14,407 nucleotides of DNA from an uncultured Ruminococcus sp. (GTDB taxonomy: Bacteria > Bacillota > Clostridia > Oscillospirales > Ruminococcaceae): contig CAMNFW010000027.1 in assembly GCA_946537565.1 (NCBI GenBank), positions 1-14,407 of the forward strand, written 5' to 3'. Positions 1 through 13,836 of this stretch are shown piece by piece. Below the pieces are notes generated by a model. That model was not told the origin of the DNA. It did no database searches and saw only the letters and a list, made by a program, of their open reading frames with translations. The translations under genes and the position numbers were made by a program. The stretch's first letter is position 1. Every line of letters starts with the position of its first letter.

Positions 1-705
1 AAGATAAGGACGGGGAATTTCTGTTCTTCCCCGGATAATTCTGTTGCAGATGTATTTCTCACCGTTCCACGCTTTCAGAAGCAGATCAAGGCTCGGAACA
101 CCGTTGCTGTACTTTCCGTTGAAATTACTGAGCATTCCGGCTTCGTCGGAGATCATCAGCAAAGAATCATTCTCACTCAGCTCCAATGAAAGAGATTCAG
201 GGGTAATGTCATCAACGGCTATTCTTATCGGGGCAGTATTGCGGATATTTTCAGCCTGAACACGGAGCTTTGCGATTGCGGCGGTGTCAGGCTCGTCCTC
301 TTTTTCCATAGCTTTTACACGGGCTTCGATAGCTTTAACTTCCTGCTGAGCCTTGTAAATTTCCTCACGGTGGTCATTGTTGTACTTACTCTCAAAGCTA
401 TCAAAGGGAGCTTTGATGAAGTGCATGACAGGGCTTTTTCTTTCAGAGGGCTGAGCTATGATAATAGAATACAGCACAGGCGGTTCGGTGTGGTCTGGCT
501 TTCCGGCAAGCCGATACAGACCTGTAAAACAGTAACCCACGGCTGAGAGCATTGCTGTTCCTGCCATTCCCACATCGGTGAAAGTCGTGACCGAGATCGC
601 CTTCGCCATATCCCGCAAAACAGGCGGCAGATCATTTACAGGAAAGGGTATAACATCTGCCTTCTGACGGAGCGGTCGGGGGTCTTCCCATTGAATATTA
701 GTCAT
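1..705 (-). CDS. DUF3987-type protein, N-terminal 235 codons (runs off the left edge)
   Basis: This reading frame is open from an ATG at 703-705 to the window edge, so the C-terminal part is missing. The N-terminus (WEDPRPL, then FPVNDLPPVLRDM at residues 21-33) matches what I know of DUF3987 proteins, which are P-loop, helicase- or primase-like proteins often carried by phages and integrated elements. Residues 83-92 (IAQPSERKSP) lie where the family has its Walker A-like loop, and LLMISDEAG (182-190) resembles a Walker B strand. Residues 110-155 are rich in Lys, Glu and Ala and probably form a helical insertion. An AAAGGAAG ribosome binding site sits about 7 bases before the ATG. The upstream in-frame alternatives are closed by stops. 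Function in DNA replication of a mobile element is an inference from the family. The short forward ORFs inside this span are shadows. I am confident of the frame and fairly confident of the family. Confidence 0.82.
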   Translation of the reverse strand, partial: MTNIQWEDPRPLRQKADVIPFPVNDLPPVLRDMAKAISVTTFTDVGMAGTAMLSAVGYCFTGLYRLAGKPDHTEPPVLYSIIIAQPSERKSPVMHFIKAPFDSFESKYNNDHREEIYKAQQEVKAIEARVKAMEKEDEPDTAAIAKLRVQAENIRNTAPIRIAVDDITPESLSLELSENDSLLMISDEAGMLSNFNGKYSNGVPSLDLLLKAWNGEKYICNRIIRGRTEIPRPYL

Positions 706-771
706 TTTTCATCTTCCTTTCAGCAAGCAAATTTTTTTATGCTTCTATAAAGGGGCAGAAAAAAACGGCTT

Positions 772-791
772 TTCAACTGTTATCCGTTGAA
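772..791. repeat. Inverted repeat TTCAAC-N8-GTTGAA
   Basis: A perfect 6-bp inverted repeat with an 8-base spacer lies about 67-86 bp upstream of the DUF3987 start. It has the shape of an operator for a dimeric repressor and would fall near the promoter of that leftward gene. It could also be chance in AT-rich DNA; no regulator for it is in the window. Confidence 0.4.
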
Positions 792-871
792 TAACGAAAT
801 TATTTTTTTTATTTTCATAAACTGCGGCAAAAAAACATTTTACTGGATTTTGTGGATTTTGTGTATGTTGA

Positions 872-903
872 CCTGTAAAAGGCTGTATTTCGGCATTTAC
901 AGG
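872..903. repeat. Perfect 8-bp inverted repeat CCTGTAAA...TTTACAGG with a second inner stem
   Basis: CCTGTAAA at 872-879 is matched exactly by TTTACAGG at 896-903. Inside it, GCTG (882-885) can pair with CGGC (891-894), giving an extended hairpin of about 12 pairs around a TATTT loop. There is no T-tract on either strand, so it is not a usual intrinsic terminator. It could be an operator, a structured RNA element or part of an element end. The match is direct; the role is unknown. Confidence 0.55.
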
Positions 904-1035
904 CACCAGAGCATAGTGTATGTTGTGTGGTGGTTGAAGTCTTTTGGACGGGCAAGGGCGGCGGTAAATCTCATAAACAAAAAATTGTACAATACTATGA
1001 AAATAATGATTATATATAAAAAATATATATAACTC

Positions 1036-1064
1036 TTGACATTTCTTTTATAATTAGATATAAT
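1036..1064 (+). promoter_or_regulatory. Consensus sigma-A promoter of the YGPP/radical SAM operon
   Basis: The -35 box TTGACA (1036-1041) and -10 box TATAAT (1059-1064) both match consensus perfectly and are separated by exactly 17 bp. Transcription should start near 1071, giving a leader of roughly 33 bases before the TTG start at 1104. No other promoter is visible before the second or third gene, so this one probably drives all three. A perfect promoter suggests strong expression unless a repressor acts here. Confidence 0.85.
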
Positions 1065-1103
1065 AAAATAAATAGCTGTATTATATGATCGAAGGTGTTG
1101 ATT

Positions 1104-1472
1104 TTGAAGAAAACTCAGAAAACTAAGCTGACTGCTGCTATCCTTGCAGCCGCTGTTAATTTTTCATCATGTACCTCCGGCGGTGAAGTGCAGAACGTCT
1201 ACGGTCCGCCTGTGGATTATACCGACACTTCTGCTTCCCAGACTGTGACCACTGCCGCTGAAACTACACAAACTACTGCCGCTGTTACTACTATTTCAAC
1301 TACAACTGTTTCCGTTACCGAAGTTACAGAACCAACTACCACCGAATCCAGCACCGAGGTCACAGAACCAACTACAGCTGAATCCGTCACCGATGCTGTT
1401 GAAACTGAACCTTATACCCCCGGAAAAGAACCATTTGCTGCCGTATATGGCCCTCCGGATTTTCTGGATTAA
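1104..1472 (+). CDS. Small exported Thr-rich protein with two VYGPP motifs (candidate radical SAM substrate)
   Basis: I do not recognise a named family. The product is 122 residues. A signal peptide (MKKTQKTKLTAAILAAAVNFSSC) has a weak lipobox-like end at Cys23, so it may be a lipoprotein or simply secreted. The mature part begins with VYGPP (residues 32-36), continues as a Thr/Glu/Val-rich stalk (about 40-105), and ends with VYGPPDFLD (114-122). I chose TTG 1104 because GAAGG (1091-1095) lies 8 bases before it and the product then aligns with the next gene's MKKSDKTALTAAI; GTG 1095 and TTG 1098 overlap or abut the ribosome binding site. It is the first gene of a three-gene operon ending in a radical SAM/SPASM enzyme. 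That context and the repeated motif suggest it is a substrate of that enzyme (inference). It has no dockerin, unlike its paralogue. Confidence 0.8.
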   Translation: MKKTQKTKLTAAILAAAVNFSSCTSGGEVQNVYGPPVDYTDTSASQTVTTAAETTQTTAAVTTISTTTVSVTEVTEPTTTESSTEVTEPTTAESVTDAVETEPYTPGKEPFAAVYGPPDFLD

Positions 1473-1538
1473 AGTTCTGATGTTTCAATATTCACAAAAT
1501 CATATCTTTAACTATCGACAATGAAAGGAATGATGAGC

Positions 1539-2132
1539 ATGAAAAAATCTGACAAAACTGCTCTTACAGCTGCTATTTTTGCTGCTGCTCTGAATATTGT
1601 TCCAATCGCAGCAAACGCTGAGAGCAATAATAACGAGCCCAGCGATATCCCCACTGAATATTACTCGCCGGAAGATGAGGATATCCAGGATGTTTACGGT
1701 CCCCCTGAGTACTTCACAACTGAAACTACCCAGACCACTTCTGCCATGGATACGAACTACTATGACATAATTAATACTACCACTGAGCCGGTTTACGGTC
1801 CGCCCTGGATGTTTACTACTACTACTACTGAGACAACCCCCGTTCCTGTTTACGGTCCGCCCCCGATTACCGGCGATATCGACTATAACGGAGTCGTTGA
1901 TGTCTTCGATCTCATTGCTGCAAGAAAAATACTCGCCAGCAATGGAGCTGATAACTCCTGGGGTTATTCTGCTGATATTAATCACGACACCAGATTCACT
2001 ATTGCTGACGTTGTTTCTCTTTCCCGTATTCTTCTGAACAGAGGCGATTACTTCGTTTCAGACAGCGACCTCACCGACGATACTCCTCAGCCTGAATATG
2101 GTGCGCCTATTTATTTCGATGACCAGGAGTAA
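1539..2132 (+). CDS. Exported dockerin protein with three VYGPP motifs and a terminal EYGAP (candidate radical SAM substrate)
   Basis: The 197-residue product has a Sec signal peptide (MKKSDKTALTAAIFAAALN...ANA, cleavage near residue 27) almost identical in pattern to the gene before it. VYGPP occurs at residues 52-56, 85-89 and 104-108, separated by Thr-rich linkers, and EYGAP at 186-190 near the C-terminus. Between them, residues 112-170 form a type I dockerin with two calcium loops: Asp113, Asp115, Asn117, Asp121, Asp124 and Asp146, Asn148, Asp150, Thr154, Asp157. Dockerins dock proteins onto cohesins of cellulosomes or the cell surface. I chose ATG 1539 over 1521, 1530 and 1533 because AGGA (1526-1529) precedes it by 9 bases and it matches the paralogue. 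The gene for the radical SAM enzyme starts 5 bases after the stop. That the YGPP motifs are modified is inference. Confidence 0.87.
   Translation: MKKSDKTALTAAIFAAALNIVPIAANAESNNNEPSDIPTEYYSPEDEDIQDVYGPPEYFTTETTQTTSAMDTNYYDIINTTTEPVYGPPWMFTTTTTETTPVPVYGPPPITGDIDYNGVVDVFDLIAARKILASNGADNSWGYSADINHDTRFTIADVVSLSRILLNRGDYFVSDSDLTDDTPQPEYGAPIYFDDQE
1697..1699 (+). other. First Tyr-Gly junction region of the YGPP motif set
   Basis: This marks the first of the motif copies in the dockerin protein. All six copies lie at 1197-1211, 1443-1457, 1692-1706, 1791-1805, 1848-1862 and 2094-2108. They read VYGPPVDY, VYGPPDFL, VYGPPEYF, VYGPPWMF, VYGPPPIT and EYGAPIYF. Tyr, Gly and the second Pro never vary. 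Confidence 0.6.
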
Positions 2133-2137
2133 AAAAT

Positions 2138-3211
2138 ATGCTGGACGTTAATATCAAAAAGAAACATCTCGATGCCCTCGCTGACTATAGAAACAGCCTT
2201 AAAACTGCCCCTCAGCTCAGAAACCTCTTCCTTGAACTCACCCTCCGCTGCAACGAAAGATGCCTCCACTGCGGAAGCTGGTGCGGCGACGTAAAATCAG
2301 AAGAGCTTACTGCTGCTCAGTATGGCAAATTCTTAGCAGAAATTAAGGGCGATTTCGGTACTGATAAAAAAATGCTCTGCATTACCGGCGGTGAACCCCT
2401 GCTTAGAAAAGATTTTTTCGATATTATGGCTGAGGCTGACCGTCTCGGTTTCCGTTGGGGTATGACCAGCAATGCCACCTTAATTGATGACAGCGTTGCC
2501 CGTGAACTGAAAAGAGTTGGTATGGGGACAATCTCCGTCAGCATAGACGGTCTTGAGGAAACTCATGATGCCTTTCGCCGTACTCCCGGCGGTTGGAAAA
2601 AAGCTATGAACGGTATCGAAAGTCTCCTGAGAGTCGGCGGTTTCCATGCTGTTCAGGCAACTACTGTTGTAACTCATCAGAATATCGGTCAGCTGGACGA
2701 GCTTTACAAAATATTCAATGATATGGATATCGACTCCTGGCGAATTATCAATATGGAGCCTATGGGTCGTGCCAACGATCACCCTGAGCTTCTTCTGACT
2801 AAAGAAGACTATAAGTATATGTTCGAGTATATTAGAAATATGCGTATCAAAGGTGAGCCTGTTACTTATGGCTGCAGCCATTACCTCGGTATGGAGTATG
2901 AACGTGAAGTCCGTGACTGGTACTACCACTGCACTGCCGGTACTTATATCGCAAGTATTACCGCCAGCGGTGATATTATCGCCTGCCTCGACATCGAACG
3001 CAGACCTGAGTTTATTCAGGGAAATATACTCCGTGACCGTTTCTACGATGTATGGACTAATAAATTCCAGATTTTCAGAAGAGATCTGGCAGACAGCTGC
3101 GAAAAATGCTCATCTTGCTCTGAGAAAAATTACTGCCACGGTGATTCCTTCCATAGCTGGGATCATGATAAAAATGAGCCTCTGCTTTGCTTCAAGGATA
3201 TTCTCTTCTGA
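2138..3211 (+). CDS. Radical SAM/SPASM peptide-modifying enzyme
   Basis: The 357-residue product carries the radical SAM motif CNERCLHC (Cys38, Cys42, Cys45) that binds a 4Fe-4S cluster and S-adenosylmethionine, an extra Cys49, and the GGEP motif at 84-87. A C-terminal SPASM-type domain supplies Cys246, Cys265, Cys283, Cys321, Cys324, Cys327, Cys333 and Cys351, enough for two auxiliary clusters. SPASM enzymes typically modify ribosomally made peptides or proteins (PqqE, AlbA, spliceases, sulfatase maturases). The start ATG has AGGAG (2125-2129) within the end of the upstream gene, so translation is probably coupled to the dockerin-YGPP protein. No PqqD-like recognition domain is fused at the N-terminus, which has only about 30 residues before the barrel. 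The likely substrates are the two YGPP proteins (inference from operon structure). Isoleucine codons avoid ATA (about 3 of 24), unlike the kinase gene at 8298. Confidence 0.92.
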   Translation: MLDVNIKKKHLDALADYRNSLKTAPQLRNLFLELTLRCNERCLHCGSWCGDVKSEELTAAQYGKFLAEIKGDFGTDKKMLCITGGEPLLRKDFFDIMAEADRLGFRWGMTSNATLIDDSVARELKRVGMGTISVSIDGLEETHDAFRRTPGGWKKAMNGIESLLRVGGFHAVQATTVVTHQNIGQLDELYKIFNDMDIDSWRIINMEPMGRANDHPELLLTKEDYKYMFEYIRNMRIKGEPVTYGCSHYLGMEYEREVRDWYYHCTAGTYIASITASGDIIACLDIERRPEFIQGNILRDRFYDVWTNKFQIFRRDLADSCEKCSSCSEKNYCHGDSFHSWDHDKNEPLLCFKDILF

Positions 3212-3275
3212 TAAATGTTTTAAGCTAATAATAAAAACCTCTTCATTCACAAGGGTTTCCGCCCATCAAAAAAAA

Positions 3276-3299
3276 GTCCAGCTAAGTGCTGGGCTTTTT
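3276..3299. terminator. Bidirectional intrinsic terminator between convergent genes
   Basis: The stem GTCCAGC/GCTGGGC (7 pairs, one G-T) encloses the loop TAAGT and is flanked by eight A on the left (3268-3275) and CTTTTT on the right. It can therefore stop the radical SAM operon on the plus strand and the nuclease transcript on the minus strand. Confidence 0.87.
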
Positions 3300-3377
3300 C
3301 ATTTTGAAGTAATTTGTTAAAAGAAATGCAGTGAAGATGATGAATGACGGCATATCAAGCGTTTTAACTACATTATT

Positions 3378-4457
3378 CTATGTCGTTTCTTCCGCAAGAT
3401 CCGGACGGCATCTGCCGCATGGAGAATAACCCTGCTCAAGAAGCTCATCAAGGCTGCCGCTATAATACAGCCGATTCTTTTCAAGTATAGTCGGGACACT
3501 TGGGCAGTCAGGACAGTGTATCTTATGTGTGTTCATATTCAGAACATAGTCACAAGCCAGAACAGTATATTCAGCGGTCGTTTCAGGTTCAGTTTCAGGT
3601 TCAGTTTCAGTTTTAGTAATATCCTGGGTCTGCTGATCGTTTTTGTCTATCAGCCAGTTGTCGCCGTTGGAATAGTCAATACCAATTCCAGGATATGCGT
3701 TGTAGCAGAATACATTGAAACATATCGCCTTGCCTTCATCTTCTACAGAATATGCCTCCATTAACACTCCTCTTGCCAGAAGTTCACTGCCCTCAAAAAC
3801 CGGCGTGACACGGTAAAGAACGTGCTGACCTGTAGTGTGAACAAAATCAGCAATTGAATTTTCAAAGGGAAGCATTCCCTGAGTGTTCATGTATCTTGTG
3901 CCGGTTATAAGATTGCAGACATTGGCATTTTCACCGGTCAGCTGATAGCCCAGAAGATGACAGCGGTTGTAGAGGTATTTTCCGTCAATGAAATCATATT
4001 TATCAAGATGCCAGCCAGTTGGCTTTACAGCGCCGATCTTTCCACGCTTTTCTGTGGGCATTATATCCTGACCGACACAAGCCATTGTAACACCGCATCT
4101 CCCAAGACTGTCCAGTTCAGAGTAATATTCATATGAAGTTTCAGTCAGGTCTGAACTGGTGAAAAATGGGATATTTCCATTGACAACAGTATACGGACTA
4201 TCAGTAAACGCCGGAATATCGCTGAGTTTGAAAGCGTTAGGATTTTCAGTTGTAATTGCAGCAGTAACTGTGGTAGAATTTGTTACCTCAGTCTGGATCA
4301 CAGTTGAGGGATTTGTTCCTGAATCAGTAAACTGCTGGACGACTATAGTTTCAGGCTGCGAAACAGAAATATTTTCAGAAGGAGTACAGCTCAGCTGTAT
4401 CATCGCAGCGAGAACAGTGATAATAAAAGCAAAAAATGTCTTAAGTTTCATATTCAT
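3378..4457 (-). CDS. Exported EndA-like DNA/RNA non-specific endonuclease with C-terminal Cys4 module
   Basis: The 359-residue product starts with a signal peptide ending near Cys24 (weak lipobox IQLSC), then a Ser/Thr-rich spacer to about residue 75. The nuclease core spans about 85-255. NRCHLLGYQL (164-173) corresponds to the DRGH-type active-site motif of this beta-beta-alpha metal nuclease family, with His167 as the likely general base; ENANVCNLITGTRYMN (176-191) supplies the metal-binding Asn, probably Asn191. A TEPETEPET linker (284-293) leads to a C-terminal module (about 297-352) with Cys315, Cys318, Cys347 and Cys350, resembling the Ada-type Cys4 zinc module seen at the end of some secreted nucleases. 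Roles could be nutrient DNA degradation, DNA uptake or biofilm turnover. The start is ATG 4457, or ATG 4451 two codons later; neither has a clear ribosome binding site. An upstream hairpin stem lies just 13 bases before the start. Confidence 0.88.
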   Translation of the reverse strand: MNMKLKTFFAFIITVLAAMIQLSCTPSENISVSQPETIVVQQFTDSGTNPSTVIQTEVTNSTTVTAAITTENPNAFKLSDIPAFTDSPYTVVNGNIPFFTSSDLTETSYEYYSELDSLGRCGVTMACVGQDIMPTEKRGKIGAVKPTGWHLDKYDFIDGKYLYNRCHLLGYQLTGENANVCNLITGTRYMNTQGMLPFENSIADFVHTTGQHVLYRVTPVFEGSELLARGVLMEAYSVEDEGKAICFNVFCYNAYPGIGIDYSNGDNWLIDKNDQQTQDITKTETEPETEPETTAEYTVLACDYVLNMNTHKIHCPDCPSVPTILEKNRLYYSGSLDELLEQGYSPCGRCRPDLAEETT

Positions 4458-4470
4458 TAGTTAGGAAAAC

Positions 4471-4498
4471 AGCAGCGTGATCATAAGGTCACGCTGCT
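4471..4498 (-). terminator. Strong 10-bp hairpin between the pectate lyase and nuclease genes
   Basis: AGCAGCGTGA and TCACGCTGCT form a perfect 10-pair stem with an 8-base loop. On the minus strand it follows the lyase stop by 7 bases and precedes a short TTTT, so it probably terminates lyase transcription, though the T-tract is weak. It also lies only 13 bases before the nuclease ATG, so it may instead act as a partial terminator or processing stem in a lyase-nuclease transcript. Confidence 0.75.
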
Positions 4499-4505
4499 TT
4501 GTAGT

Positions 4506-7415
4506 TTACTGTGCTTTGGTGATAAGAATCTGGCGGAAGGCTATGAGGTCGTAAACATCAACAGACTGGTCTTTGTTGAGATCAGCTATGATGAACTGTT
4601 CAGGAGTGAATTTTTCAGCGCCGAGAAGATACTTGTGCAGCAGCAGCAGGTCAGCTACATTTACCAGCTTATCGTTATTGAGGTCGCCGCTGAGATCGTC
4701 TGGAACAGTTGTAGTAGTAGTTTCCTCAGTAGTTGTGGTGACAGCAGTTGCAGTGGTGGTTGTGGTGATGGTTGTGGTGGTGGTGGTAGTTGTGGTGGTA
4801 GTAGTTGTTTCAGTTTCAAGCTGCCAGCGCTGGCATTCGCTGGCTGTAGGCTCCCACTGCTGAACATTAGCTCCGCTGTCTTTTGAAGCGTAGCCTACTT
4901 CAACAAGGCAAGCGTCCTTTGAAGCATGAGTGATTATGCTGTATGAGCCGTCAAGATTTTTAGTGAAACGGAAAAGCTGTGCGCTGTCCTTTGAAGAATA
5001 TGCTGCAATATCAATGTTGCTGCCGTTTTCGCTGCCTTCAGCTTTAAGAGCAAAATTCTCGTCCTGGAGTGAACGTATCCAGTAGTAGTTTCCGGAATTA
5101 AAGGGTTTGAGAGTCCATTTCTGGCAGTCAAAGCCATTTGAACCCCACTGCTGAACGTTGGTATTGTCAGCCATGTTTGCAGAGTCAATATCCATAACCA
5201 TGCCGGAGTTGACATTTTTAAAAGTATAGATAACGCTTGTATCCATAGCAGTTCCGGGATCGGCTGCTGCTTCAAGTATCCAGTCCTGGCAGTTAGCTCC
5301 ATTTACTTCCCACTGCTGGATATTAGCACCGGAAGCAGTGCTTGCATCTGCAACCTCAACACATGAAGCCTCTCCGGATACTCTTGTGCGTATCTTATAG
5401 CTTCCGTCGGAATTCTTGGTGAACATAAACTGCTGATTAGTACCGCTGTTGAAGCTATAAATATCAGCATTTGTGCCGTTGTCAGATTTTCTGCCGGCAA
5501 TATCCAGCACATAGGTGCCGCCGTCGCCTACGCATGAAGCAATGTAGTAGTAGCCGTCACCAGCACTGTAAAGCTTCCATATATCGTGAACAGATGAACC
5601 GTCACTGCCCCACTGCTGGATATTAGCACCGTTTTCAGCAGCTGCACCTTCTACCTGCATATAAAGTCCGGAGTTAACATTTTTAAAGCGGAATGCAGCA
5701 CCCTCACTGAATGATGCAGCTACAGGACCGCTGGGAAGCTCTGTATAGCCTGCGCTTGGGATTCCCTTATTGGCATATCTGAGATACATCCAGTTGCCTT
5801 TGCTGGTCTGACAGCCGCTGTAGTTATTGCAGTAAGTCTTTGCATTGTCAGCAGTGAGCTTTACATAGTTATAGTTGGAAGCTGCTGTCCAGGTGCCGAC
5901 CTTTGCATAGGAAGGATTTGAAGATGTGCCTGCTCCAGCGGTAAGACGGTTAACCTTTCCAGAAGACTTTGAACCGGAATCAAGGAAGTAGCCAAGATTC
6001 TGATCAGTGGAGCTGGGAGCGTTCCAGTCACAGCAGACATTTCCGCTGGTGGAATTATTTTCATAGAAGCAATTTTCAGCAAAGATGCTTGTATTAGCCT
6101 GTACGGTGTAAGCCATTGAGAACTCGCTTACATAGTTATTAAGGCTGTGGAAATAACCCCAGCGCATAAGTCCGGGCGCTCTTGTAAGGGTTTTATAGAA
6201 CTTATTTGAAGCAAGTGTCATTCTTGGATAGCCGTTATACTGTGCATAATTGCTGGCGCTGCTGTCCGGATAACCGAGAATAAGTCCATACTCATGAAGT
6301 CCAAAGGAATTGTCGGAAACTGTGCAGTAATCAGCATAATAGCAGCAGGCAAGGAATTTATCCTTATCACTGACGGAATTATCTGTACCGTAGGGATTGT
6401 AGCCGCTGTGTCCGGTAAAGGTAACATGATCGACCCAAAGATTCTGACCGCCTCTGAAATAGATCATGATATTATCATTTCCATTGGCTTCTGCTGAATG
6501 CTGGATATCAAAATTCTTGATGATAACATTGCTGCCGTTGCCTTTATTTGACTGTTCTGTAGTAAAAGCAACGTTATTCAGCGTGTGAGCATCGAAGCTG
6601 CCGATAATGGTCTTATTTGAAGCGATCTGTATTCTGCCGGGAGCAGTATATTTCTGACCAAGACCGTCATTGGAGAAGCTGTTGATAGAAATATTCTTTT
6701 TTACGATAATAGTGTAGGGAGTCGTAGATTCGGCATATTTTTTCAGTTCATCGAAAGTGGATACTTCAACGATCTCACCAAAGAGACCGCCGATATCTCC
6801 TGCCTTGATATTTCCTGTGTTATCATTTTTACAGTAGCCTGCAAAACCCTGGAGACCGTCACAGTTCAGCAGCCAGAGCTGTGAGTCTGCGCCGGTATAA
6901 TTAGCCAGTGTCATACCTGAGCTGCCCTGTGTGAGAGCAAGAGAAGTGTCAGAGTAGTTTACGATCTTGTAGTAAAGATTATTTCCCAGATGATCTGTTT
7001 TAACAGGAATAACATACCAATGCTGGGACTTTGCGGATTCACTGCCGAATACAACAACACTTGCACCGGCTGTAACATTGTAATTGAGGGGGGTGAGAAG
7101 TCTGCCTGACTGAGCATTTACCAGTTTGAAGAAAGTGCCGTTGGAGTCAGAGCCTACACGATCGAATCTCCATGAAGGAGAAAGGTCATTGCCGAGAGCT
7201 TTGACTGAGAGGGAAGAACCGTCTGTTGTGCCGTTTTCGGTAAGAACTTTAGAATTGTCTTTGACGGCGATGTTGATAAGCTGAGCCGGATAGTCCACTG
7301 ATGCAGCAAAGGAACTGAGAGAGAGACTTCCTGTGCCGAATAGCGGAAGGATCCATGCTGTCAGCAGAAACAGCGACAAGACTGCTGCCAGCCGCATATG
7401 GGTTTGTTTTTTCAT
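4506..7415 (-). CDS. Modular secreted pectate lyase (PL1-like) with ricin-type lectin modules and dockerin
   Basis: The 969-residue product has a signal peptide (cleavage near 38), an N-terminal beta-trefoil-like region (about 41-185), and a parallel beta-helix lyase core (about 210-480). WVDH (327-330) matches the family-1 pectate lyase WiDH motif, and TRAPGLMRWGYFHSLNNY (411-428) matches its RxPxxRxGxxHxxNN catalytic and calcium-site segment. Two ricin-type lectin (CBM13-like) units follow (about 572-716 and 728-866), each with repeated N(I/V)QQW motifs. A Thr-rich linker (867-903) leads to a type I dockerin (about 909-966; ligand series Asp911, Asn913, Asp915 and Asp945, Asn947, Asp949). 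It probably cleaves homogalacturonan by beta-elimination while attached to a cellulosome or the cell surface. The start is ATG 7413-7415, with AAGGAGGT 7 bases upstream; a longer frame to 7682 would read through the promoter and is not real. Confidence 0.93.
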   Translation of the reverse strand: MKKQTHMRLAAVLSLFLLTAWILPLFGTGSLSLSSFAASVDYPAQLINIAVKDNSKVLTENGTTDGSSLSVKALGNDLSPSWRFDRVGSDSNGTFFKLVNAQSGRLLTPLNYNVTAGASVVVFGSESAKSQHWYVIPVKTDHLGNNLYYKIVNYSDTSLALTQGSSGMTLANYTGADSQLWLLNCDGLQGFAGYCKNDNTGNIKAGDIGGLFGEIVEVSTFDELKKYAESTTPYTIIVKKNISINSFSNDGLGQKYTAPGRIQIASNKTIIGSFDAHTLNNVAFTTEQSNKGNGSNVIIKNFDIQHSAEANGNDNIMIYFRGGQNLWVDHVTFTGHSGYNPYGTDNSVSDKDKFLACCYYADYCTVSDNSFGLHEYGLILGYPDSSASNYAQYNGYPRMTLASNKFYKTLTRAPGLMRWGYFHSLNNYVSEFSMAYTVQANTSIFAENCFYENNSTSGNVCCDWNAPSSTDQNLGYFLDSGSKSSGKVNRLTAGAGTSSNPSYAKVGTWTAASNYNYVKLTADNAKTYCNNYSGCQTSKGNWMYLRYANKGIPSAGYTELPSGPVAASFSEGAAFRFKNVNSGLYMQVEGAAAENGANIQQWGSDGSSVHDIWKLYSAGDGYYYIASCVGDGGTYVLDIAGRKSDNGTNADIYSFNSGTNQQFMFTKNSDGSYKIRTRVSGEASCVEVADASTASGANIQQWEVNGANCQDWILEAAADPGTAMDTSVIYTFKNVNSGMVMDIDSANMADNTNVQQWGSNGFDCQKWTLKPFNSGNYYWIRSLQDENFALKAEGSENGSNIDIAAYSSKDSAQLFRFTKNLDGSYSIITHASKDACLVEVGYASKDSGANVQQWEPTASECQRWQLETETTTTTTTTTTTTTITTTTTATAVTTTTEETTTTTVPDDLSGDLNNDKLVNVADLLLLHKYLLGAEKFTPEQFIIADLNKDQSVDVYDLIAFRQILITKAQ

Positions 7416-7466
7416 TGTTAATACCTCCTTAGACTTTGAAAAAAATGAACATATTATTGCATCATT

Positions 7467-7495
7467 ATTATACCACAAAATGTGAATAATGTCAA
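7467..7495 (-). promoter_or_regulatory. Consensus sigma-A promoter of the pectate lyase gene
   Basis: Read on the minus strand, TTGACA (7490-7495) and TATAAT (7467-7472) are both perfect and 17 bp apart. Transcription should begin near 7460, leaving a leader of about 45 bases before the lyase ATG. Imperfect TGTG-AAAT-like repeats lie on and upstream of the -35 box and could bind a regulator. Confidence 0.85.
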
Positions 7496-7541
7496 TGTGT
7501 AAATCAGTGAATATAGAGTACATAATTTTAAACGACAGGTA

Positions 7542-7570
7542 TTGATTTAACTGAACAGATATGATACAAT
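7542..7570 (+). promoter_or_regulatory. Promoter of the two-component system
   Basis: TTGATT (7542-7547) and TACAAT (7565-7570) are 17 bp apart, with a TG one base before the -10 box (extended -10). The promoter diverges from the lyase promoter, with about 46 bp between the two -35 boxes. Confidence 0.7.
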
Positions 7571-7626
7571 AGTATACATAAGTCAGGATTTGAAATGTAT
7601 AAAATAATCTTCTTTGGAGGCGTATA

Positions 7627-8301
7627 ATGCTAAAGGTGTTATTAGTTGAAGATGACGAGCAGCTTTCACGAAATCTATCCAAATTTCTGATAATGGAAGG
7701 CTATAATGTTGTTTGTGCAGGCGGACAGACAGAGGCGCTTAAGGTTTTCGAGGAAAGCAAGTATGACTGTGTGCTGCTGGACGTATCGCTCAGGGACGGA
7801 AACGGTTTTGCAGTTTGTTCAGTAATAAAAGCTCAGTCCGATGTCCCTGTGATATTTCTGACTGCATCAGCAGATGAAGCTTGTACTGTCGCAGGATTTG
7901 AAGTGGGCGGAGATGATTATATCGCAAAGCCTTTCAGACCAAGAGAATTGCTGGCAAGAATGAAAAATGCAATGCGAAAAAATACCAGAAATGTAAAATT
8001 TCTTTCATGCGGAGATGTAACGATCGACCCGGCTAAAGGCATAGTAACTAAAAATGGAACCGAGATTTTTCTTTCTGCTTTGGAGTATCGTCTGCTGCTG
8101 GTTTTTTTCTCTAATAAAGGGCAGCTTCTGTCAAGAGACAGGCTGGCAGAAGAGCTGTGGTCAGTATCCGGAGAGTATGTTTCTGACAATACTATCAATG
8201 TGTACATGAAACGGCTGAGAGAAAAAATAGAAGCCGATCCCCAACACCCGGAAATCATTCTCACAGTAAGAGGAATGGGTTATAAGGCGGTGGAAAAATG
8301 A
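7627..8301 (+). CDS. OmpR/PhoB-family response regulator
   Basis: The 224-residue product has a receiver domain (1-120) with acidic residues Asp9 and Asp10, the phosphorylation site Asp52 in VLLDVSL, Thr79 and Lys101, all standard positions. A winged-helix DNA-binding domain (about 128-222) ends in VRGMGYKAVEK, typical of the OmpR/PhoB family. GGAGG (7616-7620) lies 6 bases before the ATG. Its stop overlaps the kinase start in an ATGA arrangement, so the two are translationally coupled. It diverges from the pectate lyase gene, making that gene and its own operon plausible targets (inference). Length and domain order are normal for the family. Confidence 0.96.
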   Translation: MLKVLLVEDDEQLSRNLSKFLIMEGYNVVCAGGQTEALKVFEESKYDCVLLDVSLRDGNGFAVCSVIKAQSDVPVIFLTASADEACTVAGFEVGGDDYIAKPFRPRELLARMKNAMRKNTRNVKFLSCGDVTIDPAKGIVTKNGTEIFLSALEYRLLLVFFSNKGQLLSRDRLAEELWSVSGEYVSDNTINVYMKRLREKIEADPQHPEIILTVRGMGYKAVEK

Positions 8302-9293
8302 ATAAGAGCAGCAGGCTGAAATATATGCTTCAGGCAGCAGCGGCAGCAGCCGGAGCCGGAGTGAGTTTTGCTTTCAGTCATATTTCTTCATTGATACTTC
8401 TGGCAGTATCGGCAGTTATAATCGCCGCTGAATATATATCTGATATCCGCCGCAATAAAGAACTGCTCAGACTTTGCGATAATATAGACCGTATTCTCCA
8501 CGGTGAAGATAATATTGATTTTAACGATTATCAGGAAGGCGTGACCGGAATTCTAAAAGCTGAAATTCATAAAATGACGGTCAAGCTTCGTGAGCAGAAC
8601 GCTGGACTTAAAAAAGAAAAGATGTATCTCAAAGAATCTCTGGAGGATATATCCCATCAGCTCAGAACTCCCCTGACCTCAATGATACTGATAAATGAGA
8701 TGCTGACTCAGCCAGGACTGAACGAACGTCAGAAAATGGAATGTCTCAGAGAACAGTATACACTGATAGATCAGATGAAATGGCTGATAGAAACTATGCT
8801 CAATTTATCAAGAATAGATGCAGGAGCGGTTACTATGCGAAAAGACACAATAGACTGCGGCGAACTTATAAAACGATCGTTAGAGCCTTTAGCTGTATCC
8901 CTTGACCTTAAGGGTGTGGATACGGAAATCTGCTGTGCCGACAATACCACGATCGAAGGCGATATACACTATCTGTCAGAGGCACTGCTGAATCTGCTAA
9001 AAAACTGTGTCGAACATACTCCGCCGGGCGGCAATATAAAAATATCTGCCGAAAATAATCCCTTGTACACCGGCATAAAGATCACTGATACCGGTGAGGG
9101 TATAAAAAAAGAAGATTCAGCAAGAATCTTCGACAGGTTTTACCGCTCGTCCGAGTTTAATAAAAGCGGATACGGCATCGGATTGTCATTTGCAAAAAAA
9201 GTGATAGTCAGCCATAACGGCAGCATAACTGTATCAAACGCAAACCCCAAAGGCGCTTGCTTTGATATACGCTTTTACAAATCAAGCATATAA
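8298..9293 (+). CDS. Membrane sensor histidine kinase with a very short external loop
   Basis: The 331-residue product has two predicted membrane helices at about 11-27 and 29-46 with almost no extracellular segment, then a cytoplasmic linker, a DHp domain with phospho-acceptor His120 in DISHQLRTPLTS, and a HATPase domain: N box NLLKNCVEH (Asn236), G1 box DTGEGI (264-269), F box FDRFYRSSE (278-286) and G2 box GYGIGL (291-296). All catalytic motifs are intact. It phosphorylates the regulator encoded just upstream, with which it overlaps by 4 bases. The minimal loop resembles intramembrane-sensing kinases such as BceS-like proteins, but no ABC transporter is next to it, so the signal is unknown. 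Ile codons are mainly ATA (about 21 of 33). Confidence 0.95.
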   Translation: MNKSSRLKYMLQAAAAAAGAGVSFAFSHISSLILLAVSAVIIAAEYISDIRRNKELLRLCDNIDRILHGEDNIDFNDYQEGVTGILKAEIHKMTVKLREQNAGLKKEKMYLKESLEDISHQLRTPLTSMILINEMLTQPGLNERQKMECLREQYTLIDQMKWLIETMLNLSRIDAGAVTMRKDTIDCGELIKRSLEPLAVSLDLKGVDTEICCADNTTIEGDIHYLSEALLNLLKNCVEHTPPGGNIKISAENNPLYTGIKITDTGEGIKKEDSARIFDRFYRSSEFNKSGYGIGLSFAKKVIVSHNGSITVSNANPKGACFDIRFYKSSI

Positions 9294-9296
9294 AAT

Positions 9297-9322
9297 AAGC
9301 TCCGGAATTAAAACCGGAGCTT
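9297..9322. terminator. Intrinsic terminator after the two-component system
   Basis: AAGCTCCGG and CCGGAGCTT form a perfect 9-pair stem with an 8-base loop, starting 4 bases after the kinase stop and followed by TTATGTTTTT on the plus strand. On the minus strand ATTTTAT follows, so it may also serve the convergent hydrolase gene. Confidence 0.88.
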
Positions 9323-9346
9323 TATGTTTTTGCATGATTATCTCAA

Positions 9347-10288
9347 TTATGAGAAATAGTTACGGTAACCATCGCCATAGAAGCTGAAATAGCCGTGATT
9401 GAAGGATTCAGGCTCTGTGAAATAAAGGGTAACAGCATCCTTGACTGACTGTGTAACATAGCTGGTGTATGTACCTAAGTATACATAGCTTGAAGAACCG
9501 CTGAACTGATAAGGCTGAGTGAGCACGCCTGTGATAGTGTTTGGATAAAGAGGACTGTTGACTCTGTTCATGATTACTTCAACGACCTTAGCCTTGTCGT
9601 ATTCATCTATCCAGTTGCAGCCTGCTTCGTGTGCTACGGCATTGCACAGGATAATATAATCACTGTCTGAGATTGGAAGAGTGCTTGTAGGTGTTGGAGC
9701 CGGAGCAGCAGGTGCTGTAGTTGTTGTAGTAACTGTTTCAACAGCAACAGTCTCAGTAACAGGAGCTGTCATCGGCTCATAGGTATTGTAATCATCTTCG
9801 CTGACGGGTTCGTTATAGCAGTAGAACTGATCAACGGCAGTGGTCGTAACGTCTACAACATAGACTACTTCTTCTGCTGTGGTTGTCTCGGTGTTTGCGG
9901 CTGCTGTGAAGACGGCAGCAGTAGCATGGTCGCTGTAATCAAAAGTAACTGTATCCGCAGTGGTTGTGGCTGCTGTTGAAGTAGCGGCAGCTGGTGCCGT
10001 ATAATAAGCAATATTAGCAGTTGTGGTGACAGCAGCGGTGGTTGTATAAGCCTTGGTTGTGGTGGTAACGGGGGATTTGCTTGTAGTGGTAACGGCTGTG
10101 GTGCTGATAGAAGTTACTGCAGCTATGTTTGATAATTCTTCGTTTTTAACTTCGCAGATATTTTCAACATCCTTCTTTGGAGTGACAGAACTTACAACTG
10201 GTGATGTTGCATAAACACCAAAAAGTCCGCCGAATAATGTAGTGGTAACGCTTCCAAAGATAATTGCTGCAACTTTAGCTTTTCTCAT
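9347..10288 (-). CDS. Exported SleB-like cell wall hydrolase with a long Thr-rich stalk
   Basis: The 313-residue product begins with a signal peptide or anchor (about 1-29, ending VYATS). A low-complexity Thr/Ala/Val stalk (about 56-205) with scattered Tyr follows. The C-terminal catalytic domain (about 206-313) has the SleB/CwlJ (hydrolase_2) hallmarks: NAVAHEAG with the likely catalytic Glu221, KVVEVIMNRVNS, PNTITGVLTQPYQFS and a GY-rich end. Such enzymes cleave peptidoglycan as lytic transglycosylases or amidases; the best known act in spore germination, but many are vegetative. The stalk suggests the domain is held away from the membrane or works through the cell wall. I chose ATG 10288, with AAGGA 7 bases upstream, over the TTG one codon earlier. 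There is no dockerin. It has its own promoter and is convergent with the kinase gene. Confidence 0.87.
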   Translation of the reverse strand: MRKAKVAAIIFGSVTTTLFGGLFGVYATSPVVSSVTPKKDVENICEVKNEELSNIAAVTSISTTAVTTTSKSPVTTTTKAYTTTAAVTTTANIAYYTAPAAATSTAATTTADTVTFDYSDHATAAVFTAAANTETTTAEEVVYVVDVTTTAVDQFYCYNEPVSEDDYNTYEPMTAPVTETVAVETVTTTTTAPAAPAPTPTSTLPISDSDYIILCNAVAHEAGCNWIDEYDKAKVVEVIMNRVNSPLYPNTITGVLTQPYQFSGSSSYVYLGTYTSYVTQSVKDAVTLYFTEPESFNHGYFSFYGDGYRNYFS

Positions 10289-10328
10289 CAACTCATCCTT
10301 TCCTCGAAAAGCATTTCGTTATTATTTT

Positions 10329-10343
10329 GCCCTGTTTCAGGGC
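10329..10343 (-). other. Stem-loop at the predicted 5' end of the cell wall hydrolase mRNA
   Basis: GCCCTG and CAGGGC form a perfect 6-pair stem around a 3-base loop. The predicted transcription start is at about 10344, so the RNA would begin with this hairpin. Such 5'-terminal stems are known to protect mRNAs from decay; that role here is inference. Confidence 0.6.
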
Positions 10344-10350
10344 TGAGGAT

Positions 10351-10379
10351 ATATTACCATATTTAGCTGAAAATAGCAA
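10351..10379 (-). promoter_or_regulatory. Promoter of the SleB-like hydrolase gene
   Basis: On the minus strand, TTGCTA (10374-10379) and TAATAT (10351-10356) are 17 bp apart, with TGG directly before the -10 box giving an extended -10. The leader to the ATG is about 55 bases. Confidence 0.7.
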
Positions 10380-10808
10380 TAGTTTTGAGAGAACTTCCAT
10401 TTAACCACCAAAAAAACTTGTCGCATTAAGTGATAATTAGTGAAAATGCTACATATTAAATGAATAAAAAATGAATGAAATATTATGAAATATTATATAA
10501 ATTACAATAAATATCAAGTAAAAATTACAGAATTATTACAACAGATACAAAACGATTAATTTACTATCTGTATATTTTATAACCAGCCTAAGCATAAAAC
10601 ACAAAAAATGATTTGTCAGATTGTTAACAGTGTCAGTTTTTCCAGTTCGACAGAATACGAATAGTACAAACTGCAATTATGACAAAAAAATCAAATCGTT
10701 ACAATTTGTATCCTTTAAACCTGTCCAAAGCTCATTTTTCTTCGTCAAAATCAATAAAAGCTGCAAAAGCCTGTTTTTCGGGAAAAGTAAAAAATTAGCC
10801 TCAAACTA
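10380..10808. other. AT-rich intergenic region upstream of the TIR/TPR gene
   Basis: No gene is supported. A forward 94-codon frame at 10621-10905 begins with TTG without a ribosome binding site and overlaps the promoter of the next gene, so I reject it. The stretch contains a short duplicated TGAAATATTA (around 10477-10500) and A/T runs, and otherwise nothing I recognise. Confidence 0.6.
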
Positions 10809-10837
10809 TTGCAAAAAATATGAAAATGTGCTAAAAT
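10809..10837 (+). promoter_or_regulatory. Promoter of the TIR/TPR operon
   Basis: TTGCAA (10809-10814) and TAAAAT (10832-10837) are 17 bp apart, and TG one base before the -10 box makes an extended -10. The predicted leader is about 68 bases and includes GGCTG...CAGCC, which could form a weak stem. Confidence 0.65.
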
Positions 10838-10911
10838 ATAAAGGGTGTACTGCGGCTGAAAATAAAATGTTTTTTGCCTTGCAGCCAATTGATGCTATGA
10901 GGTAAACTCTT

Positions 10912-13815
10912 ATGGAATATGAACGAGAATCTGACGTTGTTGAGTATAAGACAAAAGGCGGTGTTTCGCCCAGCGGCAAGCCAATGGTTTATATTACCGC
11001 CCACAGCTGTGATATGCCGCTTTACTTTAATACAGTATCAGAAATGATACTCAATTCCTTTGACTGTACGATCTGCTATAACAATGATCCGGAAGAACCA
11101 TACAGGATCAAGGATATTGACGTTTTTTTGATGCAGTGCAGACTTGTTGTGATAATTGTTACATCTAAATTTACCGATGAGGACAGCTGTGCCTACAGAA
11201 AGATCTTCCAAATGGCAATGGATATGAAAAAGCCAGTCCTTCCCATTATGATGGAAAACGGCATAGAACAGCGTTTTAACGAAAAATGCGGAAATCTTCA
11301 GATTCTTGACCCGTTTTCTGCTGACGTTACTGCCCTGAGTTTTGAAAGTAAACTTAAAAAGTATCTGGATACGGTTTTGTATGACCAGAATACTGCAAAA
11401 AAAGTCAAACGAGCTTTCTCAGCTTATATTTTCGTCAGCTACCGCAAAAAGGACAGAGCTTATGCAAGAAAAATGATGAAGCTTATTCATAACTTTGATT
11501 TTTGCCGTGATATAGCTTTGTGGTATGATGAATTTCTTACTCCCGGCAAGGATTTTGAAAAATCTATACGCTCAGCTTTGAAAAAAAGTCAGGTCTTTGC
11601 ACTTGCAATAACTCCAAACCTGGTTTGTGAACCAAATTATGTGCAGCAGATCGAATACCCTATGGCTGTAAACCTTTATAAAAAAGTGCTTCCGGTCGAA
11701 ATGAAAAAAACAGACAGAAATGCTCTTAGTATCCAGTATCCGAATATCTCAGAACCCCTATCACCCGATAATAAAGTGCAGCTTGAAAAGGCTTTAAGGC
11801 AGTATCTTTCACTTTATATCCGAAAATCCGATGATTCCCCTGAACATATCTATCTCATCGGTCTTGCAAATCTTATGGGCATTGATATGGAAATAAATAC
11901 TGAAAATGCTGTAAAAATGATATCTTCAGCTGCCGATCAGCTTTACAAACCTGCTGTTAAAAAGCTGGCTGAAATGTTTTCTTCGGGCGACGGCGTGAAG
12001 CCGGATTACATCAGAGCAGCAGATTATTATCAGCGGCTTGCCTGTATTACTGAGGACGAATTCAACACAAACGGTGAAGAATTATCTGCTGTGGAGTATC
12101 TCGATCAGCTTACATTAGCAGCAGAATTCATGTACAGAGCCGGAAAATATACCGATGCTATGGTGATATATGACAGGGTAAGAATGAAAAGCAAAAGGTT
12201 TATGCGTTTTTTTGAAAGCGGTCTTATCATTGTTATGTATATCAGATCACTGGTTCTGATCTCTGAGTATTATGATCTTTTTTCAAATCATATCAAGGCT
12301 GAGAAATATGCCCTTGAAGCTCTGGATAATGTGGAGCTTCTGAGCAGATATCCTTCTCTGGATAAGAGAAATATCACAATAGCAAAATTCAGGATATTTA
12401 TTTCTCTTTCACATATCTCGGACAATCTGGGTAAAATTGAGAAGGCAATTGAATATAATAAATGTTTACTGGAGCTTGCTCATGAGCTTAAAGAAAAAAA
12501 TATGGCTGACAGCTATGTTCTTTATGAGGAAACAGCAGCAAGATCAGCCCTGTCTTTGCTGTATGCCCGGCTCGGCAAAATGGAGGAAGCAGAAAATTAT
12601 TCACCTGCCGGAAGCTTTGAAGCTTCTGTGGGCGATGAGTTTTCCAGCCTGGCTTTGAAGGCTAATTCCCACTATAACGCCGGAATGAGATTTATGGAAA
12701 TGAGAGAGTTTAAAAAGGCTGAGGAGGAATTGTACAAGAGCCTGGAAATATATGAAAAGAACTATGATAACAGTTCTGCTGATACAATGCTTTACGCTTC
12801 CTGCGGAGCATATATCGCTCTTGCCAAGCTGTATTCCGATACTGGAGATCTGCAAAGAGCTATGGAACTGACAGATAAAGCTTATGCTATAGCTCTTAAG
12901 GAATCCTCTGAAAGAAAATTAAATATGTGGTACGGTGTTCTCGGAAAAACAATGTTTATTTACGGAGACATTTATTCAAAGAAGGGCGAGGAACTTAAAA
13001 TGCTCCAATGCCTGCTGAGATGTATTGATATTCTTTCTCCTATTATCAACTCTACCGCTTCCCATAGTCTGAAGATAGATCTCCTGACAGCTTACGCAAA
13101 TGCAATATTATTTTATTTACAGCAAAACGATTATGATAATGCAGAAAATCTCGCCTTAAAAGCAGATAAGCTTATTGATTCTGAAATGACTGATGACCAG
13201 GATCCTTTTGTCAAAAGACTGAGAATGAATGTATATAACAGCTTCGATATTATCTACGGAAATAAAAACGATATAGTCCGGAGAGAATATTACGCTGAAA
13301 AACGCAGAAAAATATATGGCGATGAACAAGAAGCGAATATTTCGTTTTCGGATTTTGTTATGATGACCAATCAGGCTATAATGCTGATGAATGAACAGCA
13401 TCTTGATGATGCCCTGGAACACCTGAAAAATGCTGAGAATATGGTGAAAACCTCGCCGCATCTGTTCAGAAACGCAGAAGAGCTTATATCCGTCGCCCAT
13501 ATGTATTATTACATAGGTCTTGTTTATTTTAACAAAGATGATTACGGCAATTCAGAATCTTATTTTTATAAGAGTCTGGATTTTCTCAGCAGCGATCCCA
13601 GATTCAGGGAAATCTCCCAGAGACTGGAAATTTCAAGTCTCTGCCACGGATATATGTGTCAGATCTGTTTATTCCAGAAGAATATTATAAAAGCCAGAGA
13701 TCATTATAATGAAGCCGGAAGGTTTCTTGAAGAAATGGAAAGAAAATATCCCGGAACTGATCAGATTCAGAGGGTCAGGGATTTTTTAAACAGCATAGGT
13801 AAAATGATAAGATAA
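10912..13815 (+). CDS. TIR-domain protein with degenerate TIR-like N-domain and Sel1/TPR array
   Basis: The 967-residue, apparently cytoplasmic product has three parts. Residues 24-157 look like a degenerate TIR-like domain (VYITAHS at 26-32; VVIIVTSKF at 79-87; KKPVLPIMM at 106-114) without the usual catalytic Glu. Residues 170-265 form a clearer TIR domain: YIFVSYRKKD (172-181), LWYDEFLTPGKDF (203-215) and NYVQQIEYPMA (242-252), where Glu248 fits the catalytic Glu of NAD-cleaving TIRs. A Sel1-like repeat (about 341-377, GDGVKPDYIRAADYY) and a long helical TPR array (about 385-960) follow. TIR enzymes signal by consuming NAD or making cyclic ADP-ribose derivatives; TPRs usually bind protein partners. 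GAGGT (10899-10903) is 8 bases before the ATG. The next gene begins 21 bases downstream and shares the degenerate domain. A defence or signalling role is inference. Confidence 0.87.
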   Translation: MEYERESDVVEYKTKGGVSPSGKPMVYITAHSCDMPLYFNTVSEMILNSFDCTICYNNDPEEPYRIKDIDVFLMQCRLVVIIVTSKFTDEDSCAYRKIFQMAMDMKKPVLPIMMENGIEQRFNEKCGNLQILDPFSADVTALSFESKLKKYLDTVLYDQNTAKKVKRAFSAYIFVSYRKKDRAYARKMMKLIHNFDFCRDIALWYDEFLTPGKDFEKSIRSALKKSQVFALAITPNLVCEPNYVQQIEYPMAVNLYKKVLPVEMKKTDRNALSIQYPNISEPLSPDNKVQLEKALRQYLSLYIRKSDDSPEHIYLIGLANLMGIDMEINTENAVKMISSAADQLYKPAVKKLAEMFSSGDGVKPDYIRAADYYQRLACITEDEFNTNGEELSAVEYLDQLTLAAEFMYRAGKYTDAMVIYDRVRMKSKRFMRFFESGLIIVMYIRSLVLISEYYDLFSNHIKAEKYALEALDNVELLSRYPSLDKRNITIAKFRIFISLSHISDNLGKIEKAIEYNKCLLELAHELKEKNMADSYVLYEETAARSALSLLYARLGKMEEAENYSPAGSFEASVGDEFSSLALKANSHYNAGMRFMEMREFKKAEEELYKSLEIYEKNYDNSSADTMLYASCGAYIALAKLYSDTGDLQRAMELTDKAYAIALKESSERKLNMWYGVLGKTMFIYGDIYSKKGEELKMLQCLLRCIDILSPIINSTASHSLKIDLLTAYANAILFYLQQNDYDNAENLALKADKLIDSEMTDDQDPFVKRLRMNVYNSFDIIYGNKNDIVRREYYAEKRRKIYGDEQEANISFSDFVMMTNQAIMLMNEQHLDDALEHLKNAENMVKTSPHLFRNAEELISVAHMYYYIGLVYFNKDDYGNSESYFYKSLDFLSSDPRFREISQRLEISSLCHGYMCQICLFQKNIIKARDHYNEAGRFLEEMERKYPGTDQIQRVRDFLNSIGKMIR

Positions 13816-13836
13816 TAATAAGGAGAATGAAGGAAA

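Follow-up and report, generated by a model that had tools for sequence, protein, structure and literature searches.

The splicease PlpXY excises a tyramine unit at X-Tyr-Gly (PMC10533398; also PMC11002830). PlpX is described under IPR026482, and its precursors carry a Nif11 or a nitrile-hydratase leader (PMC11002830). PMC10533398 reports that PlpXY does not need the leader, and that the splice tags tested with it were PIRPLYGLPI, PIRPGYGLPI or AVAAGYGVVFPG. Here, we describe a three-gene unit from an uncultured Ruminococcus, found in a stretch of 14,407 nucleotides (the window; contig CAMNFW010000027.1, positions 1 to 14,407). Its closest hits suggest a source near R. flavefaciens. The unit encodes two small exported proteins with Tyr-Gly-Pro-Pro (YGPP) motifs (gene 1, 1104..1472, and gene 2, 1539..2132) and a radical S-adenosylmethionine (SAM) enzyme with a SPASM domain (gene 3, 2138..3211), all on the plus strand. 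The pairing of this enzyme with YGPP proteins is real. Splicing at the YGPP motif, giving alpha-keto-amides at the cell surface, is the most likely reading of it, with a probability of about 0.5.

We compared the neighbourhoods of the relatives of the gene 3 enzyme. A scan of a named genome collection gave 374 relatives, and we kept the 80 closest of them, which have 69-83% identity. An open reading frame (ORF) with YG[PA]P lies upstream, on the same strand and within 4 kb, in 79 of these 80. This count accepts a single motif, and the weakest case (L059) has one motif at 262 bases from the enzyme. The 80th relative has just 188 bases of upstream sequence. The distance between the motif ORF and the enzyme is 60 bases or less in 75 of the 79. 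As a control, we restricted the 80 loci to the 70 that extend by 1 kb or more in both directions, and considered motif ORFs of at least 40 amino acids within 1.5 kb. They appear upstream in the sense direction at 70/70 loci; the counts for upstream antisense and for downstream on either strand are 0/70 each. Most loci (63/70) have at least two motifs in one upstream sense ORF. Likewise, the motif ORF is found at 0/8 loci of AhbD-like or NirJ2 enzymes.

The same relation is present at the level of genomes. The enzyme occurs in 11 of 24 genomes of the genus and in 0/16 genomes of the order's other families. Ten of the 11 genomes have at least one neighbour ORF with two or more YGxP, and the eleventh (L005) has a single ORF with three YGTIP and one YGPP. 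The genus genomes with the enzyme (n = 11) contain on average 11.0 YGPP-coding DNA words against 5.0 in those without it (n = 13; p 0.0004). Expressed per Mb, the values are 4.1 and 2.2 (p 0.001), some of these genomes being incomplete. Searching at E 1e-70, we found the enzyme in 20/297 genomes of the window's own family and in 17/299 genomes of the family of genome G260. At 32 of the 37 loci of the two families, YGxP or YGP occurs in a same-strand neighbour no more than about 1.5 kb away; the 37 include two repeats of loci already seen (L131 and L145). The preliminary description of this DNA had proposed the enzyme as a modifier of the YGPP proteins, a proposal that would suffer if homologues were regularly found without such a protein nearby. 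The 79/80, 70/70 and 32/37 counts speak against that outcome.

The genes could also be co-regulated neighbours with no enzyme-substrate relation. We consider this very improbable, given the 70/70 against 0/70 control. Moreover, the scaffolds are swapped between loci and the motif is kept. In a single case, L141, the enzyme has lost its CxxxCxxC radical-SAM cysteines, and this locus has no YGxP neighbour.

The partners are varied proteins. In the Ruminococcus relatives, 64 of the 79 proximal proteins have a dockerin (PF00404, E 0.001). The lipoprotein partners contain between one and seven motifs, some of them directly after the lipid Cys (NACMYGPP, SACAYGPP). Other partners look zinc-ribbon-like by eye: those of L139, L140 and L144 present sites similar to IYGPMPEER, and that of L113 has YGSP twice. 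The enzyme of L143 is flanked by two small lipoprotein-like ORFs with YYGCP. There are up to 17 motifs per locus. We counted 489 YG sites in 141 candidate ORFs, which were chosen for holding the motif. Pro is present at position +2 in 387 sites, at +3 in 346 and at both in 328. Where Pro occupies +2 or +3 (405 sites), position -1 is Val or Leu in 308 cases. Since Y-G-x-P is the common feature of these varied scaffolds, the comparison suggests that the enzyme recognises the motif and not a particular fold.

Within the two proteins of the unit, the observed number of YG[PA]P was never reached in 20,000 shuffles of each. The source genome has 16 matches to this pattern: six inside the unit and 10 unlinked to it. 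Seven of the unlinked matches lie within an ORF of at least 60 amino acids that reads the motif, and three lie in no such ORF. These ORFs include RuvB-like and flavodoxin-like ones (both judged by eye) and one that encodes a zinc-ribbon-like protein. The last one (L097, contig 9) contains CVYGPPPVN and is unlinked to the enzyme. The enzyme may act on it in trans, since similar proteins in L113, L139, L140 and L144 adjoin the enzyme.

The preliminary description took the Tyr-Gly core as the modification site. The co-occurrence supports that part, and the Tyr-Gly motif would be the place where the putative modification happens. YGxP could instead be a recognition or docking motif, with the changed residue elsewhere, for instance in the Thr-rich linkers or near the lipid Cys. 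The motifs sit in long Thr/Glu-rich linkers, and in several relatives one follows the lipid Cys directly, as such docking would suggest. Nevertheless, a rough alignment of the 79 proximal proteins, which are repetitive, has no invariant column, and the nearly invariant positions are residues of the signal peptide and one Tyr. Up to 17 motifs per locus also exceed what docking needs. For these reasons, we find docking improbable.

The gene 3 product has 357 amino acids and matches PF04055 (79.8 bits) and PF13186 (33.0 bits). It contains CNERCLHCGSWC, GGE and the SPASM cysteines. Its radical SAM domain begins at residue 33. The AlphaFold model (predicted local distance difference test, pLDDT, 85.4) has the fold of a SPASM peptide maturase. 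The nearest structures are SkfB, 5why (presumably CteB) and SuiB. The modelled fold is neutral between splicing and other chemistries. The padloc match to pVip (69.5 bits) reflects the shared radical SAM barrel; a viperin was rejected, given the SPASM domain and nearest folds that are peptide maturases. Two relatives (P0181 and P0186) additionally have PF13302 and PF00583, which we take to be acetyltransferase families, and are probably fusions.

The preliminary description suggested a comparison with a maturase group of Fibrobacter and Ruminococcus. This suggestion found no support: of the 76 NCBIfam families that match gene 3, the 25 with the highest scores (the 25th has 66.5 bits) include no FibroRumin model. 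A triceptide/cyclophane system seems unlikely as well, since to our knowledge the third residue is seldom Pro in such systems.

The kinship of the enzyme to PlpX-type enzymes is supported but not proved by sequence comparison; the evidence is good and not decisive. TIGR04103 (nif11-class peptide radical SAM maturase 3) is, we assume, the PlpX family. With the PlpX-type splicease, the gene 3 enzyme shares CNxxCxHCGS, the SPASM architecture (PF04055 and PF13186) and a partner with X-Tyr-Gly (79/80 loci). CNxxCxHCGS is present in 19/19 enzymes of the related groups (one has CD for CN) and in 0/12 other enzymes. In a tblastn search of plasmids, the strongest matches that follow those of TIGR04133 fall in these groups, namely Agathobacter (130 bits), Aureibacter (112 bits), Nostoc (111 bits) and Tropicibacter (105 bits). 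An enzyme on a Nostoc plasmid clearly belongs to TIGR04103 (853 bits, cut-off 725). It adjoins a Nif11 precursor that ends in GGRGSIALYGLPPELF. The C-terminal LYGLPPELF of this precursor places Y-G-x-P beside a PlpX-type enzyme. We also built trees with few outgroups, and PlpX itself is not among their rows. The gene 3 group forms a joint clade with the nif11 maturase 3 group with support of 98/94 in 24 rows. The support is 82/80 in 29 rows, which include AhbD-like, NirJ2, TIGR04053 and AcgM enzymes.

The GDL (DUF1843) system, TIGR03913, also shares CNxxCxHCGS and has small upstream partner genes. In the GDL-type loci (TIGR03913 or similar), four of eight small upstream partners contain YGPA, YGGA, YGVA or YGAG. 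Two relatives on viral contigs have MYGVA (L178) and LYGVP in nearby ORFs. As differences, GDL partners are small with no signal peptide seen, and the GDL enzyme has a long C-terminal extension. A scan of viral contigs with the TIGR04133 alignment gave no relative, the nif11 enzyme gave no phage records, and the PDB entries that match the nif11 enzyme in sequence (E 1e-5) include no splicease. On the Tropicibacter plasmid (L121), a GDL-like radical SAM enzyme has a trypsin-like protease and an M23 peptidase as neighbours. There, an upstream phosphotransferase-like gene has FYGLPPG near its start, perhaps by chance.

Several observations weigh against splicing. In the profile comparison, the best NCBIfam after TIGR04133 are AhbD (143 bits), MftC (132), NirJ2 (132), TIGR04053 (122) and NirJ (120). 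TIGR04103 comes seventh among the matching families, with 117 bits against a cut-off of 725. PlpX works with PlpY, a truncated recognition-element (RRE) protein, and the unit, where the search was made, holds no further gene. PlpX precursors have Nif11 leaders, whereas the products of genes 1 and 2 have signal peptides. The AlphaFold model shows a single helix ahead of the barrel. The SPASM cysteines form a different set from that of the PlpX-type enzymes: the fourth Cys of CX2CX5CX3C is missing, and the conserved Cys 49 and Cys 246 are extra residues that nif11 and GDL enzymes do not have. The joint clade falls to 72/45 once MoaA and two radical SAM fragments of the source genome are included. 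The Agathobacter relative, which is inside the joint clade, has no YGxP ORF at its locus. The other four of the eight GDL partners have YA or YM, not YG. Five of the 37 loci have no adjacent YGxP or YGP gene. These are L141, L142 (the enzyme is split and a neighbour has YAPP) and, without explanation, L134, L159 and L160.

The motif itself also gives reasons for doubt. Of 16 FtsZ insertions listed in PMC10533398, two were accepted, both PIRPGYGLPI. Another tag in the same source is GYGVV, with no Pro at +3. With two of 16 insertions accepted and one tag without Pro at +3, the likeness of the motifs proves little by itself. The Pro that is conserved here would be dispensable for splicing.

The main rival to splicing is another reaction at YGxP. 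It could be a cross-link that joins the Tyr ring with a neighbour or with the +3 Pro, an oxidation of Tyr or Pro, or a cleavage between Calpha and Cbeta of Tyr. We regard it as a serious candidate that falls short of an even chance. Such a reaction would fit the strong retention of Pro (328/489 sites with both) and variants like EYGSP, EYGTP, CYGMP, YGSP and YGCP, and splicing shows no obvious need for Pro, as in the GYGVV tag (PMC10533398). The cysteine pattern differs from that of nif11 and GDL enzymes, the profile scores do not favour PlpX, and SPASM enzymes catalyse many reactions. Against it, spliceases are known to act at X-Y-G, a site that is present in the Nostoc PlpX-type precursor and in four of eight GDL partners. 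The comparison with PlpX made in the preliminary description stands in part. The HCGS motif, the clade in two of three trees and the Y-G-x-P of the Nostoc precursor and of some splice tags agree with it. On the other side, the unit has no PlpY, and PlpX does not stand out in the profile scores.

The closest NCBIfam model to the gene 3 enzyme is TIGR04133 ('rSAM_w_lipo'), at 276 bits where the cut-off is 425. Three members on plasmid records have 608 bits (Parabacteroides, L114), 618 (Phocaeicola, L115) and 451 (Treponema, L116). Their lipoprotein partners contain CEYGSP in Parabacteroides, CEYGTP in Phocaeicola (where the gene is downstream) and SCYGMP in Treponema. The first two match TIGR04134. 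The Treponema partner gave no match to TIGR04134 at E 1e-20, the sole limit used, and its record names it a radical SAM-associated lipoprotein. The gene 3 group and the TIGR04133 group are sisters in three trees (92/97, 99/98 and 99/98). Both have C49 and C246 and have lost the fourth SPASM Cys. In both, a lipoprotein with Y-G-x-P adjoins the enzyme (gene 1 and its relatives; 3/3 TIGR04133 loci sampled).

The two systems differ in their partners. The products of genes 1 and 2 give no match to TIGR04134 at E 1, and a search of the source genome gave no member of this family, as did the control genomes of that search. The TIGR04134-type partners have one Y-G-x-P before an ordinary-looking domain, whereas the unit's proteins have several in low-complexity chains. 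A dockerin is present in the unit and was not seen at the TIGR04133/TIGR04134 loci. The preliminary description supposed that the pairing of enzyme and YGPP proteins might be new. We found no published description of it in the open-licence literature, although NCBI has already named the sister pair. It may nonetheless be part of the survey by Scott et al. 2022 (Chem 8:2659), to which PMC10533398 refers for 939 predicted splicease systems and 27 other characterised ones. A search of the open-licence literature also gave no paper on the TIGR04133/TIGR04134 pair.

If splicing takes place, the gene 3 enzyme would be the maturase of the exported YGPP proteins encoded in its own unit. It would excise tyramine at each X-Y-G-x-P prior to export, and leave alpha-keto-amides at the spliced sites. 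This predicts a loss of about 135 Da (C8H9NO) per YGPP. The gene 1 lipoprotein would then display keto-amides at the membrane, and the gene 2 protein would display them on the cellulosome or the cell surface through its dockerin. The keto-amides would probably serve to trap serine or cysteine proteases, or other nucleophiles, covalently. This chemistry, and the dispensability of a leader and an RRE, are what we infer from the comparisons above.

Spliceotides are described as protease inhibitors (PMC11117315). R. flavefaciens FD-1 is reported to have dockerin-borne serpins and relatively many dockerin-borne putative proteases (PMC2930009, PMC5301203), and the serpins were suggested to guard the cellulosome against proteolysis (PMC5301203). 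The gene 2 product is dockerin-borne like them. The serpins are folded inhibitors, whereas an inhibitor role of the unit's proteins is conjectural. By analogy, a dockerin-anchored protein that bears keto-amides would be a plausible chemical equivalent of the serpins. At L159 and L160, which have no YGxP neighbour, the gene downstream of the enzyme looks papain-like by eye, and is of interest for the inhibitor idea.

A wider proposal, which we put forward tentatively and with more doubt than belief, is a leader- and RRE-independent splicease that reads only X-Y-G-x-P. Rumen and gut Firmicutes would use it to make multi-site keto-amide surface proteins (up to 17 sites per locus), some of them docked to the cellulosome. 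The same motif-reading enzymes would have lipoproteins, dockerin proteins and zinc-ribbon proteins as substrates, across Bacillota, Bacteroidota and Spirochaetota. It would be a general protein modification, and not a pathway for peptide natural products. Should the motif be spliced, rumen bacteria would routinely carry electrophilic proteins with an edited backbone on their surface, and the enzyme would offer a way to install keto-amides in proteins that requires the motif alone. The function would extend to the TIGR04133/TIGR04134 pair as well, since both systems read Y-G-x-P.

The unit runs from a promoter through gene 1, gene 2 and gene 3 to a terminator. A sigma-70-type promoter (TTGACA-17-TATAAT, 1036..1064, plus strand) matches the consensus at 12/12 positions, and it is predicted from this match; the pattern scan gave two 12/12 matches to the -35 and -10 elements in the window. 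Gene 3 starts 5 bases past the stop of gene 2. The terminator hairpin (3266..3307, plus strand) is predicted by RNA folding: the plus-strand RNA of 3262-3310 has -19.4 kcal/mol and a z of -5.1, and 0/200 shuffles equal it. The pattern scan gave the stem 3278-3292 for the minus strand only. The next gene (3378-4457) is convergent, and no Rfam families were found in the window. The promoter, the gene order, the 5-base gap, the radical SAM/SPASM gene and the terminator all lie where the preliminary description had put them.

The start positions in the ORF list probably need a correction. Gene 1 would start at TTG 1104, with GTG 1095 as the other choice. The product of the TTG start (MKKTQKT...) matches the relatives by eye. 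Likewise, gene 2 would start at ATG 1539, and its ORF opens at ATG 1521. The gene 1 product has a lipoprotein signal ending in NFSSC, comparable with LTGC and LSAC in the relatives, and the lipobox Cys codon is at 1170-1172. The signal peptide of gene 2 is of the ordinary type. These signals were judged by eye. Gene 1 has two VYGPP sites, with Y-G-P-P at 1200..1211 and 1446..1457. In the Thr-rich gene 2 protein, Y-G-P-P is at 1695..1706, 1794..1805 and 1851..1862, and Y-G-A-P at 2097..2108, which gives the six motifs first claimed. They lie around a type I dockerin (PF00404, Dockerin_1; 1872..2036, residues 118-172), with 23.8 bits against a cut-off of 22.9. This cellulosome anchor had been overlooked. 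Genes 1 and 2 had also been called paralogous; support for this comes from their signal-peptide region and their motifs alone.

The convergent gene (3378-4457, minus strand) encodes a lipoprotein-like DNA/RNA non-specific endonuclease. Its C-terminal stretch bears a weak likeness to the zinc-binding domain of Ada (19.5 bits against a cut-off of 23). The gene at 4506-7682 (minus strand) encodes a pectate lyase that is secreted and carries a dockerin along with ricin-type lectin repeats; the listed ORF opens upstream of the probable Met start. The product of 9347-10291 (minus strand) is secreted and rich in Thr, and PF07486 marks a cell-wall hydrolase domain in it. Finally, 10912-13815 encodes a protein of 967 amino acids with a TIR domain (43 bits), many tetratricopeptide repeats and a weak padloc match to ThsB (21 bits). 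It is possibly a signalling or defence protein.

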